Virus record (IMG/VR): IMGVR_UViG_3300042546_000525
Location: 1-45,627 of that record
Origin: a virus
DNA: 45,627 nt
Strand: one strand, 5' to 3'
Shown here: positions 4,183-7,616 of the stretch, in pieces
Numbering within the stretch: the first letter of the stretch is position 1
Layout of the letters: every line of letters starts with the position of its first letter
Translations under genes and position numbers: made by a program
The notes under the pieces: generated by a model
The model's input: only the letters and a program-made list of their open reading frames with translations
Database searches by the model: none
Told to the model about the DNA's origin: nothing

Positions 4183-4610
4183 CGGTTGTCTCCGGTCATT
4201 TCGTTGGGGCCGGGCACGTACACCCCGGCTGCTGCTGCCTGTCGGATCGCGAAGTCGGCGAACTGCCAGAACCGTGCAGTGTCCAGCACATCGCGCCGGC
4301 CGCCTTCGTCCGCGGTTGTGGTTCGGATCGGGCGACTGATCTGGCGCGCGCCCATGTCGATCTGCCGCCAGCCGAAGAACTCGCCGCACAGGTACTCGTG
4401 CCAGTCCTCGGACGTGTGCCCGAGCTCGCGGACGATGGTCGGCAGCACGCAGCCGAAGTAATACGCATTGGCGGCGCAGGACCGGGGTCGGCGGTACTGC
4501 TTGACCTCGATTCGCCAAGCCTTCGTGTCGGACAAGCCCTGCAGGAAGGCGACCGCGTTGGCGAGCACCAGGGCCCGGCCGGCGTCCTTGTGGAGGATGA
4601 ACTCGGCCAT
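4179..4610 (-). CDS. NinB-like recombination protein
   Basis: 143 aa. WRIEVKQYRRPRSCAANAYYFG corresponds to the K-x-R-S-x-x-x-N-x-x-(Y/W)-(Y/W) signature of phage NinB/Orf-type proteins, which bind single-stranded DNA and help RecFOR-like loading in recombination; the C-terminal FADFAIRQAAAAGVYVPGPNE ending is frequent in phage homologs. The start overlaps the helicase stop (TGATG). It belongs with the initiator and helicase in the leftward replication block. Family membership is inferred from the motif. Confidence 0.6.
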   Translation of the reverse strand: MAEFILHKDAGRALVLANAVAFLQGLSDTKAWRIEVKQYRRPRSCAANAYYFGCVLPTIVRELGHTSEDWHEYLCGEFFGWRQIDMGARQISRPIRTTTADEGGRRDVLDTARFWQFADFAIRQAAAAGVYVPGPNEMTGDNR

Positions 4611-5947
4611 CAGGCGGCCCTCGCCAGCTTCTTGCCGCCGACCTTGGGCGCCTCGCGCTCAGGCAACATCCCGTCCCAGTCATCGGCGCGCATCTGGTCG
4701 AAACGCTCGCGCAGATTGATCGTCATTCCAGACTTGCCACCGCGCTGCTTGGCAACGATCAGCTCAAGCAAGTGATCTCGCGGCTCGCCCTGCTGCCGGT
4801 AGTAGTCCTCGCGGTGCGCCAGCAGGATCACATCGGCGTCCTGCTCAATGTCACCGGACCCTCTCAGGTCGGCCATCGTCGGTCGCTTGTTGGTTCTGTC
4901 GGTGTTCGCGCGATTCAGCTGCGCCAGGCCGACCACGGGGACCTGTAGCCGCTTCGCCAAGCGCTTGAGTCCGGCACTGATCTCGCCCAGCTCGCTCACG
5001 TCGTTTTTTCGCGGCCGACCCATGATGTGGATGTGATCGACAACCACCATGCTAAGAGCCCTTCGCATGTGGGCTCTCTCGGCTCTGGCCTCGATCTGCT
5101 GCAGGGTGAGGCTCGGCTCTTCGTCAATCTCGACCGCCGTTTCCGTCAATCTGGGCACCACGGCAGCGACGCGATCGGCGTACAAATCTGCATCTTCAAA
5201 GACGCCGGCCGGCGACTGCAGGTACTCGTGATCGACGCGGCCAAGCTGAGCAATCGCGCGCTGCCACCATTCAGCGCGGCTCATTTCAAGGGAAAAGACA
5301 AGCGGATGCCCGCCTTGCAGTCCGTTGAACGTGGTGAGGTTCTCGCCGAAGACGCTCTTGCCCATGCCGGGCCGGCCAGCAATCACATAGAACCGACCCG
5401 GCTGCAGCCCCTTGGTGATGGCGTTGACTTCCGCCCATGGCGTGACAAGCCCGGTCACTTCCAGGCCGGCAGATGCACGCTGCATGAACTCCCGATGCCA
5501 TTCGCGCAAGCCTTCCTTCGCCGAGACAGGCCCGGCCCTTGAAGACGACGCGCAGACAGCGTTGATCTTTCCTTGCGCCCAGGTCGCAGCCGCTTCGGCG
5601 CCTTGCGAGTAGGCAATATCTCCCAGCTGCTGGCCGATTTCGCGCAGGCCACGGCATTTCGCTGCAGCGACAATCAGCTCGGCATGGCAAGCCGTGGATC
5701 CGAAGAAGTAGGCCCCCGCGGATAGCTCGATCACATCAGACGGATCGATTCCAACGGCCGCGGCCGTCTCCGCTATGGTCACCGGATCGATCTGCTCAGG
5801 CTTCAAGCTGAGGGCGTGCCCATACAGCGCGCCAAGCCACTTGTCTTCGAAATGCTCAGGCAACAGCCACCCGCGCACCTGCTCAAGGCGTTCCCGCGAC
5901 GTAATGCAGGCGCCCACAACCTCACGCTCGGCTGTCAGGCTGCTCAT
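4610..5947 (-). CDS. Replicative DNA helicase, DnaB family
   Basis: 445 aa, the usual length for DnaB. The N-terminal domain (about 1-130) begins SSLTAEREVVGACI, as in DnaB. The RecA-like domain has Walker A AGRPGMGKS (about 190-198), Walker B MVVVDHIH near 290, motif H4 RGSGDIEQDADVILLAHRE and the final AKQRGGKSGM segment that supplies the arginine finger. It forms a hexamer on the lagging strand and unwinds the fork. It lies directly after the initiator gene (4-base overlap), so the phage brings its own initiator-helicase pair and recruits host polymerase; no phage polymerase was found. Confidence 0.93.
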   Translation of the reverse strand: MSSLTAEREVVGACITSRERLEQVRGWLLPEHFEDKWLGALYGHALSLKPEQIDPVTIAETAAAVGIDPSDVIELSAGAYFFGSTACHAELIVAAAKCRGLREIGQQLGDIAYSQGAEAAATWAQGKINAVCASSSRAGPVSAKEGLREWHREFMQRASAGLEVTGLVTPWAEVNAITKGLQPGRFYVIAGRPGMGKSVFGENLTTFNGLQGGHPLVFSLEMSRAEWWQRAIAQLGRVDHEYLQSPAGVFEDADLYADRVAAVVPRLTETAVEIDEEPSLTLQQIEARAERAHMRRALSMVVVDHIHIMGRPRKNDVSELGEISAGLKRLAKRLQVPVVGLAQLNRANTDRTNKRPTMADLRGSGDIEQDADVILLAHREDYYRQQGEPRDHLLELIVAKQRGGKSGMTINLRERFDQMRADDWDGMLPEREAPKVGGKKLARAA

Positions 5948-6807
5948 GCCGCGGCCTCCGCGCGCTCGTAGATCGCGGTGATCGTGTCGGGTCGAGTCAG
6001 GTACTCGAAGCTCGGCGCCCAGTTCAAGTGCGCGCCGCTGCCGGCCTGCCGCCCGGACGCGAAGGGATCGCAGTTGACGATCTGCCAGTACGCGGTCCAG
6101 AACTCGCGGGTGATCGCCGGGCTGCCGAACTCGGCGGCGCAGATTTCGCGCACGACGCGGATCGACCGCCCGACCTGCTGCCTGCGCTTCTCGCGGTTGA
6201 CTGCCGAGACGTTCGGCACCCTGCCGCCATGAGCCACCGTGAAGGGCGCGGCGTTGAAGGTCTCGATCGCGTCCTCGGTGACAGCCGCCAGCCGTTCGGC
6301 GCGCTCGGCCTTGGCCTTGGCGATTTCGTCCGCGGGCTGGTCCGAAGGCGCAGCTTTCGGACATAGCTCTTGATCTTCTTCTTCTCTTCTCTTCTCTTCT
6401 CTGCTCCGCAATTTGTCCGCATCTTTTGCGGACATGTCGCGGACTTCCTGCGGAGACTTTGCGGACTCCCTGCGCTCGCGCTTGCCCTTCGTGTCCTCGG
6501 CGCGGCGCTTCGCACCCTTACCGTTGTGCTCAGAAAACTCAGGCATTACAAGGGCTTCGCCGTCGAAGCCAAGCCAGCCGACGGAAAGCATCGCGCCAGA
6601 AAGGCCAGGCCAGCCGATGATCTGGTCGAGCAGCTCCGGCGTGTAGCCGGTCAGCTTTCCGTCGGTGCAGTGCACATCAAAAACGCTCCACGCCGCATGC
6701 AGTCCGCCGATGACGCGGAATCTGTCCGCACCAGTTGCGGACACCATGCGGACAACCTTCGGATGCGTTTGCAGGTCGCAGCGCATCTTGATCCAGTCGT
6801 TTGCCAT
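5944..6807 (-). CDS. Replication initiator / helicase-loader-like protein, containing the candidate origin
   Basis: 287 aa. The N-terminal about 95 residues (NDWIKMRCDLQTHPKVVRM, then LDQIIGWPGL) form a winged-helix-type DNA-binding domain seen in phage replisome organisers. A long charged linker follows (EEKRREEE region), and the C-terminal domain ends HLNWAPSFEYLTR before a short helix, as in proteins that contact the helicase. The place just upstream of DnaB supports an O/DnaA-like role. The gene contains iteron-like repeats in DNA at 6415-6466 and 6724-6753, like lambda O containing ori. Confidence 0.8.
   Translation of the reverse strand: MANDWIKMRCDLQTHPKVVRMVSATGADRFRVIGGLHAAWSVFDVHCTDGKLTGYTPELLDQIIGWPGLSGAMLSVGWLGFDGEALVMPEFSEHNGKGAKRRAEDTKGKRERRESAKSPQEVRDMSAKDADKLRSREEKRREEEDQELCPKAAPSDQPADEIAKAKAERAERLAAVTEDAIETFNAAPFTVAHGGRVPNVSAVNREKRRQQVGRSIRVVREICAAEFGSPAITREFWTAYWQIVNCDPFASGRQAGSGAHLNWAPSFEYLTRPDTITAIYERAEAAA
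6374..6402. repeat. Pyrimidine tract with four CTTCT repeats
   Basis: A pure pyrimidine run of 29 bases on the plus strand includes (CTTCT)4 at 6381-6400. It ends 12 bases before the iteron array in the initiator gene. In the protein it encodes the charged EEKRREEE linker. Such a tract can unwind or form triplex DNA and may be the duplex-unwinding element of the origin, which is an inference. Confidence 0.5.
6415..6466. repeat. Iteron array A, candidate replication origin
   Basis: On the plus strand GTCCGCA (415-421 in this kilobase), then TGCGGAC at 6427, CGCGGAC at 6438, TGCGGAG at 6449 and TGCGGAC at 6460. The four direct copies start exactly every 11 bases, one helical turn, and the first forms a perfect dyad with the inverted copy across 5 bases. 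A period of 11 does not follow codons, so the repeats are selected as DNA and not as protein. The position inside the initiator gene matches lambda ori in gene O. Confidence 0.65.
6724..6753. repeat. Iteron array B, same architecture as array A
   Basis: GTCCGCA at 6724-6730, five bases, TGCGGAC at 6736-6742, four bases, TGCGGAC at 6747-6753. The dyad plus 11-base spacing copies the arrangement of array A about 310 bases away. A degenerate third copy (TTCGGAT) begins at 6758, again 11 bases on. It lies just inside the initiator gene start, so binding here could also repress the initiator. Confidence 0.6.
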
Positions 6808-6901: not shown

Positions 6902-7054
6902 TCAGGCCGCGTGCAACAGCTCCTGCTGCACAGGCGGCCACCGGTCATGCAGCCGCAGCGCCAGGGCCGCGGCTTCGATCTCTTGTTGCGTGTGCTCGCG
7001 CTCGCAGTGGGCGAGGGCGGCGGCGATGCGCTGCAGGGTCTCGGCGCGCGTCAT
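6902..7054 (-). CDS. Small helical protein, 50 aa
   Basis: Too short to classify. It starts with ATG at 7054 overlapping the stop of the Ref-like gene (ATGA) and is predicted to be almost wholly helical (AETLQRIAAALAHCEREH). The 94 bases between its stop and the initiator start at 6807 hold only a weak GC dyad near 6865-6882 and no clear promoter. Confidence 0.55.
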   Translation of the reverse strand: MTRAETLQRIAAALAHCEREHTQQEIEAAALALRLHDRWPPVQQELLHAA

Positions 7055-7392
7055 GCCTCACCCCGCAGCATCTGTTCCTGCAGCTGCAGCAGCTCTTCGT
7101 CGGTGCCGTAGGCGGCGCGGAACGACTTGCTGCCGTCCATCAAGCTCGGGCCGTACTGAAACCGCATCTGCGACGGCGTGACGCCCGGCAGCGGGTGGCC
7201 GCGGTGATGCCAAAGGCAGAGCGCCACGCTCGCCTCGTGCCCGATCCGGCGCCCGCCAGACAGCAGGTGATGCGCATCGCATCCGATGGTCACCATGCCG
7301 CGCTGCCAGCACGCGACGCAGCGACCGGCCTTGATCTGGCCAAAGCGCTCGGCCTGTGCTGCGGTGATGCGCTCGCTGCTGCCCAGGCTCAT
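7051..7392 (-). CDS. Ref-like RecA-dependent nuclease family protein
   Basis: 113 aa. GRCVACWQRG, GCDAHHLLSGGRRIGHE, ALCLWHHRG and a YGPSLMDGSKSFRAAYG end follow the C-terminal HNH-like domain of phage P1 Ref, a nuclease that cuts DNA within RecA-made displacement loops. Cysteines and the HH pairs are the expected metal ligands. It overlaps the 75-aa gene (ATGA). It probably acts in recombination or in cutting host DNA. Family assignment is by motif recall. Confidence 0.72.
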   Translation of the reverse strand: MSLGSSERITAAQAERFGQIKAGRCVACWQRGMVTIGCDAHHLLSGGRRIGHEASVALCLWHHRGHPLPGVTPSQMRFQYGPSLMDGSKSFRAAYGTDEELLQLQEQMLRGEA

Positions 7393-7616
7393 GAAAGGCC
7401 CCGGCGCGCGAGCTCGGCGCGGATCGTGTGCATGCTGCGGGCGTAGCGCCATAGGTTCTGCACCGCCTGCCATATCGGGGGATAGTCGAGACTTCGGAAC
7501 CGCTTCAGTGCGATCGTCTGCTGCATGCCGGCAAACAGCGCGCGACCATCCATCGCGGCCAGCCGGTTAGTCATCACGGCCAGGTGGCGGAGCTCGTACT
7601 CACTCAGCGCTTGCAT
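7389..7616 (-). CDS. Helical protein of unknown function, 75 aa
   Basis: The chosen ATG at 7616 lies inside the end of the upstream 76-aa gene. The product is helical, with aromatic and basic residues (SLDYPPIWQAVQNLWRYAR). No family is recognised. It is a member of the coupled leftward early chain. Confidence 0.6.
   Translation of the reverse strand: MQALSEYELRHLAVMTNRLAAMDGRALFAGMQQTIALKRFRSLDYPPIWQAVQNLWRYARSMHTIRAELARRGLS

Follow-up and report, generated by a model that had tools for sequence, protein, structure and literature searches.

The locus considered here raises the question of whether a viral replication initiator gene carries its own origin of replication, and what the two sets of repeats within this gene might do. 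The window, i.e. the whole analyzed stretch of 45,627 nucleotides, contains the following features (gene bp are counted from the start codon, 0-based):

4610..5947, minus strand: gene for a phage DnaB-type replicative helicase (Pfam DnaB_C, E = 2e-63; PHROG 19)
5944..6807, minus strand: replication initiator gene, 287 aa, ATG at 6807, assigned by PHROG profile matches
6374..6402, minus strand: purine tract of AAGAG repeats on the coding strand (pyrimidine on the plus strand), gene bp 405-433, encoding REEKRREEE
6404..6466, no strand assigned: array 2, the putative origin array, six 7-bp half-sites, gene bp 341-403
6404(-), 6415(-), 6427(+), 6438(+), 6449(+), 6460(+): half-sites of array 2
6415..6433, no strand assigned: core 7-5-7 dyad of array 2, GTCCGCA-TCTTT-TGCGGAC, with the half-site spacing of the lambda iteron
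6724..6753, no strand assigned: array 1, half-sites GTCCGCA at 6724(-) and TGCGGAC at 6736(+) and 6747(+), dyad at 6724-6742
6702..6708, minus strand: outlying half-site of array 1, GGCGGAC (GTCCGCC on the plus strand), in register at 22 bp (2 x 11)

In a profile search the initiator product matched PHROG 2509 (replication initiation protein, E = 4.3e-57, residues 1-175). It also matched PHROG 9474, again a replication initiation protein, and its C-terminal part resembles PHROG 345, which is O-like. The protein consists of an N-terminal domain (aa 1-115), a linker, for which array 2 and the purine tract code, and a variable C-terminal domain. Residues 1-132 are ~60% identical to homologs of epsilon15, BUCT711 and phiPSA1 (tblastn). 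The predicted model of the N-terminal domain had a mean pLDDT of 81 and was similar to a predicted phage primosomal protein 1 and to replisome organizers. Winged-helix regulators were among the matches when the PDB was searched with this model, none of them significant. A Pfam search with the product gave no accepted model, a sequence search against solved structures gave no match, and no relative was found when genome contigs were searched with this single protein.

The helicase gene lies directly downstream of the initiator gene. Just upstream, on the minus strand at 7051-7473, a gene matching Pfam RecA_dep_nuc (Ref-like, E = 1e-19) is located. The identical initiator (287 aa, 100%) is present on two more short viral contigs (L001 and L002) from different metagenomes. 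Xanthomonas phage Rb1 (L030) has another N-terminal domain (DUF1376), but shares the C-terminal domain with residues 176-280 of the initiator (52% identity), and its gene contains CGGGTT-type repeats of its own at bp ~348-406, some of them at 11-bp steps. This is a domain swap, perhaps with a further intragenic origin.

Both arrays use one 7-bp half-site, GTCCGCA/TGCGGAC. On the plus strand array 2 reads CTCCGCA at 6404, GTCCGCA at 6415, TGCGGAC at 6427, CGCGGAC at 6438, TGCGGAG at 6449 and TGCGGAC at 6460, with steps of 11, 12, 11, 11 and 11 bp. Each array has one dyad, and the remaining sites are direct half-sites at 11 bp. In the initial annotation, four TGCGGAC repeats at 6427, 6438, 6449 and 6460 had been described, preceded by one inverted copy that forms a dyad with a 5-base loop. 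The positions and the dyad were confirmed, but the copies at 6438 and 6449 differ at one base each, and two copies instead of one are inverted, giving six half-sites in total. The adjoining pyrimidine tract was located at 6374-6402, abutting array 2. The second set at 6724-6753 had been described as having the same design. It does contain the dyad and the tandem repeats, but no purine, pyrimidine or AT-rich tract adjoins it, so that half of the design is present. Array 1 corresponds to gene bp 54-83 (codons 19-28), and the residues encoded there fall mostly in a predicted helix (residues 16-25) of the N-terminal domain model. From dyad to dyad the arrays are ~309 bp apart.

The repeats are confirmed and lie far above chance expectation. 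The perfect sequence GTCCGCAN5TGCGGAC occurs exactly twice in the whole window, at 6415-6433 and 6724-6742, and chains of at least three half-sites at 11- or 12-bp steps are found in the window only at 6404 (six sites) and 6724 (three sites). When the window was shuffled with a first-order Markov model, a three-site chain appeared in 6 of 300 shuffles and two such chains in none of the 300. In synonymous-codon shuffles, in which the protein was kept, the longest chain had four sites (6/200) compared to the six observed. A count of the most frequent 7-mer across the initiator gene gave no discrimination, as CGCGGAC is frequent in any case under the GC-rich codon usage. For array 1, shuffling synonymous codons within the first 240 bp is a weak test, since the motif is already contained in the codon pool; counting each gene's own half-site in relatives at the gene start versus after the tract is cleaner.

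Repeats within a coding sequence, together with the tract, might be by-products of conserved peptides (VRxxSAxxAD and REEKRREE), and indeed the peptide string V-R..S-A..A-D recurs at both arrays. That the 11-bp period cannot come from codons had already been claimed. The 11-bp step shifts the frame between successive copies, and the six-site chain was absent from all 200 synonymous shuffles. The tract, moreover, is translated in different frames, and synonymous sites are conserved, which makes constraint at the protein level an extremely unlikely explanation. Synonymous sites were compared among 36 representatives with <90% DNA identity, based on codon agreement between pairs of genes and on the codon usage of each gene, uncorrected for phylogeny. 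In this comparison, which the initial annotation had proposed as a check, conservation was strong at the arrays and the tract (2-4x expectation). Agreement reached 3.8x expectation at codons 19-24 and 3.5x at codons 22-27 in array 1, and 2.2-3.2x at codons 118-141, in array 2 (codons 118-132) and the tract; over most of the remaining gene it was 1.0-1.3x. A lesser peak at codons 31-39 is due to the outlying in-register half-site, which is retained by many relatives at gene bp 99. Between the arrays, codons 82-102 (~6502-6564) showed 1.4-1.9x synonymous conservation, with no repeat to account for it.

The 5-bp period and the purine content of the tract both exceed the demands of the encoded protein (P < 0.001 and 0.002, respectively), and codon identity at codons 136-144 is 0.94-0.99 versus 0.37-0.39 expected. 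The AAGAG unit with its 5-bp period is present in 32 of 38 genes, in nearly all of these with P < 0.001 given the encoded protein. Between genes this DNA is read in differing frames (REEKRREE, LEKRREEK, PEKRREEK), and variants such as TAGAG/AAGAG retain the period. This indicates that selection acts on the tract at the level of the DNA. The unit has 40% GC in a genome of 65% GC, and the tract is probably the unwinding element. Since the purines are on the non-template strand, a transcript of this part would be purine-rich and might hybridize stably with the template; that such a hybrid aids opening is a guess. The purine 23-mer was also found in an unrelated gene family, with a product starting MYKIKNWEKFNLYNP (L164, L181, L192, L196 and L241). 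At these five loci no iterons are present just upstream, and therefore the tract alone is no proof of an origin.

The layout of the gene is shared with many phages. GTCCGCA at both places and the tract are kept in epsilon15, SPN1S, PAT1, BUCT711, phiPSA1 and many IMG/VR contigs, and the layout recurs with other half-sites (GTAACGC, GTGACGC, GTCCCGA, GTCCGGC and others) in homologs at 30-45% identity. A scan with the 23-base tract alone, in which neither iteron nor protein information was used, gave 80 loci. The majority belong to this initiator family, and at least eight half-site alphabets are represented; GTCACGC, GTAGACG, GTCCGAC and GTCCCCT were added in this way. When 50 non-redundant upstream segments were compared motif-free, an 11-bp shift brought 4.0 of 6 positions of the last two half-sites into agreement, compared to a median of 1.5 at other shifts, and inverted copies were found at 22-24 and 33-35 bp. 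In array 2 of relatives, 86 of 87 dyads have a 5-bp spacer. Two further counts, a 5-bp spacer in 170 of 177 dyads and a distance of 12 bp from dyad end to tract in 70 of 85, are strongly influenced by close relatives.

In 24 of 28 non-redundant genes, the gene's own half-site occurs at least twice within 50 bp in the initial 260 bp, compared to 1 of 26 for the 260 bp that follow the tract. In the GTCCGCA and GTCCGAC types array 1 is positioned at bp ~54-110, in other types at ~98-180. The double array had been described as not known from another phage. This could not be upheld, as it is widespread and occurs in epsilon15, SPN1S, BUCT711 and phiPSA1 and, with other letters, in most of the superfamily; comparison of these sequences places it as common among related phages and not particular to this one. 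Homologs that keep the protein and lose the repeats would speak against an origin here. The geometry of array 2 is retained almost everywhere among the homologs, but array 1 was missing in L004, L005, L018 and L021, which keep array 2 and the tract. Array 1 is therefore not essential for origins of this kind. The similar N-terminal domains of L018 and L021 (NLWDDPR) go with GTCCGCA and GTAACGC, respectively, both without array 1, and form a natural pair to study a change of specificity. The distance between the arrays varies across relatives and no helical phasing was seen, which gives no indication of a short loop in tight phase.

These observations also bear on the possibility that both arrays fire, giving two origins in one gene. 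The half-sites and the dyad geometry are identical in both arrays. However, array 1 lacks an adjoining purine or AT-rich tract, and lineages with array 2 and the tract can be without array 1. For want of an unwinding tract, firing of array 1 as a second origin was set aside and is considered very improbable.

An origin within the initiator gene has been known since lambda. In lambda, O dimers bind 19-bp inverted repeats in gene O and open the adjacent region, helped by transcription (PMC5043065). The locus resembles the ori of lambda, and of the Stx phages P27 and 933W, in that the candidate origin lies in the initiator gene, with array 2 at gene bp 341-403. The 7-5-7 dyad of 19 bp, with half-sites 12 bp apart (6415-6433 and 6724-6742), matches lambda as well. 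A purine-rich stretch, in lambda the opening region and here the putative one, follows the iterons on the coding strand, and a gene downstream encodes the helicase here and a helicase-loading protein in lambda. In contrast, lambda has four dyads in a row at steps of 20-24 bp, whereas each array here has one dyad plus direct half-sites at 11 bp. The opening region in lambda is 40 bp long and A+T-rich, its putative counterpart here is a 5-bp AAGAG repeat, and lambda O has no second array near its 5' end.

The iteron plasmids P1, F, RK2 and R6K have helix-phased direct repeats beside an opening region (PMC5043065). The direct repeats of array 2 are likewise in helical phase, at 11-bp steps, but the iterons of plasmids are typically located outside rep and bind monomers, whereas these lie inside the gene and include a dyad. 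The Salmonella phage epsilon15 and its relatives (Uetakevirus) and the Pseudomonas phage phiPSA1 share the N-terminal domain (~60%), the half-site, both arrays and the tract; they differ by four half-sites in array 2 instead of six and by another C-terminal domain. No description of the origin of these phages was found in the literature searched, which was covered in part. In origins with DnaA boxes and a DnaA-trio, an array of sites likewise stands at a constant distance from a strand-asymmetric repeat of short period, but there the period is 3 bp instead of 5, and the initiator here is not DnaA. The Rac gene ydaU of E. coli K-12 (oriJ) was considered as a mapped case and rejected, as the N-terminal domain of YdaU is of another type (DUF1376); a location of oriJ to the base was not found in the literature searched.

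The proposal of an origin inside the initiator gene is thus supported by the initiator family, the adjoining helicase gene, the iterons with their tract and the synonymous conservation. Cumulative GC skew, suggested as a check, lent no support to this position: its minimum is a broad plateau at ~7-12 kb, which is uninformative because it coincides with a switch in gene direction. The arrays might instead be operators of the initiator, acting in autorepression, or of a phage repressor, with the true origin elsewhere. Array 1 begins 54 bp into the gene, a plausible position for a roadblock, and initiators of iteron plasmids are known to often repress their own genes. However, array 2 abuts a purine tract of 5-bp period at a fixed distance, as at lambda ori, which an operator does not need, and the annotated epsilon15 repressor site TTACCAAAAGGGTAA (locus L015, 2728-2744) is unrelated to GTCCGCA. 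Operators alone are therefore regarded as improbable. With good confidence, based on sequence comparison, array 2 is read as an intragenic origin of the lambda type that has plasmid-like phased direct repeats, and array 1 as an additional binding site for the initiator.

The two arrays and their geometry, the conservation of the DNA, the agreement of half-sites between both arrays in several alphabets and the constant distance to the tract are observed; binding of the initiator, melting of the tract, the start of replication and the role of array 1 are inferred. The initiator gene would be a self-contained replicon cassette, in which the winged-helix-like N-terminal domain of the product would bind the GTCCGCA half-sites. 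The core dyad of array 2 and its direct half-sites, one helical turn apart, would load initiator molecules in phase as far as the border of the tract. The tract would then melt, with transcription of the gene assisting, and provide the entry site for the phage DnaB helicase. Array 1, within the DNA coding for the DNA-binding domain, would be a second initiator-binding site without an unwinding element and is thus unlikely to be a second origin. Initiator bound at array 1 may block transcription of its own gene and the helicase operon as a roadblock, or may pair with array 2; the chances that array 1 is a regulatory site of either sort are about even.

In the literature searched, which was covered in part, no description was found of the hybrid array, the 5-bp tract, the second array or interchangeable letters with fixed geometry. 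There is an even chance that these phages represent an undescribed, large class of phage origins. In this class one gene would combine the initiator, a 5-bp-period purine unwinding tract that dictates a part of the protein sequence, and two half-site arrays with lineage-specific but gene-matched letters, array 1 being a conserved control site that couples initiator level to firing. The questions of what the second array does, and why the 5-bp purine period persists although it forces REEKRREE, become testable. The initiator domains with their differing half-sites form a natural set from which rules of DNA recognition could be derived. The sequence rule, consisting of a half-site dyad, steps of 11-12 bp, a fixed distance to the AAGAG tract and the gene's own half-site again near the gene start, gives a base-level position of the probable origin for many temperate phages with apparently unmapped origins, the classical epsilon15 included.
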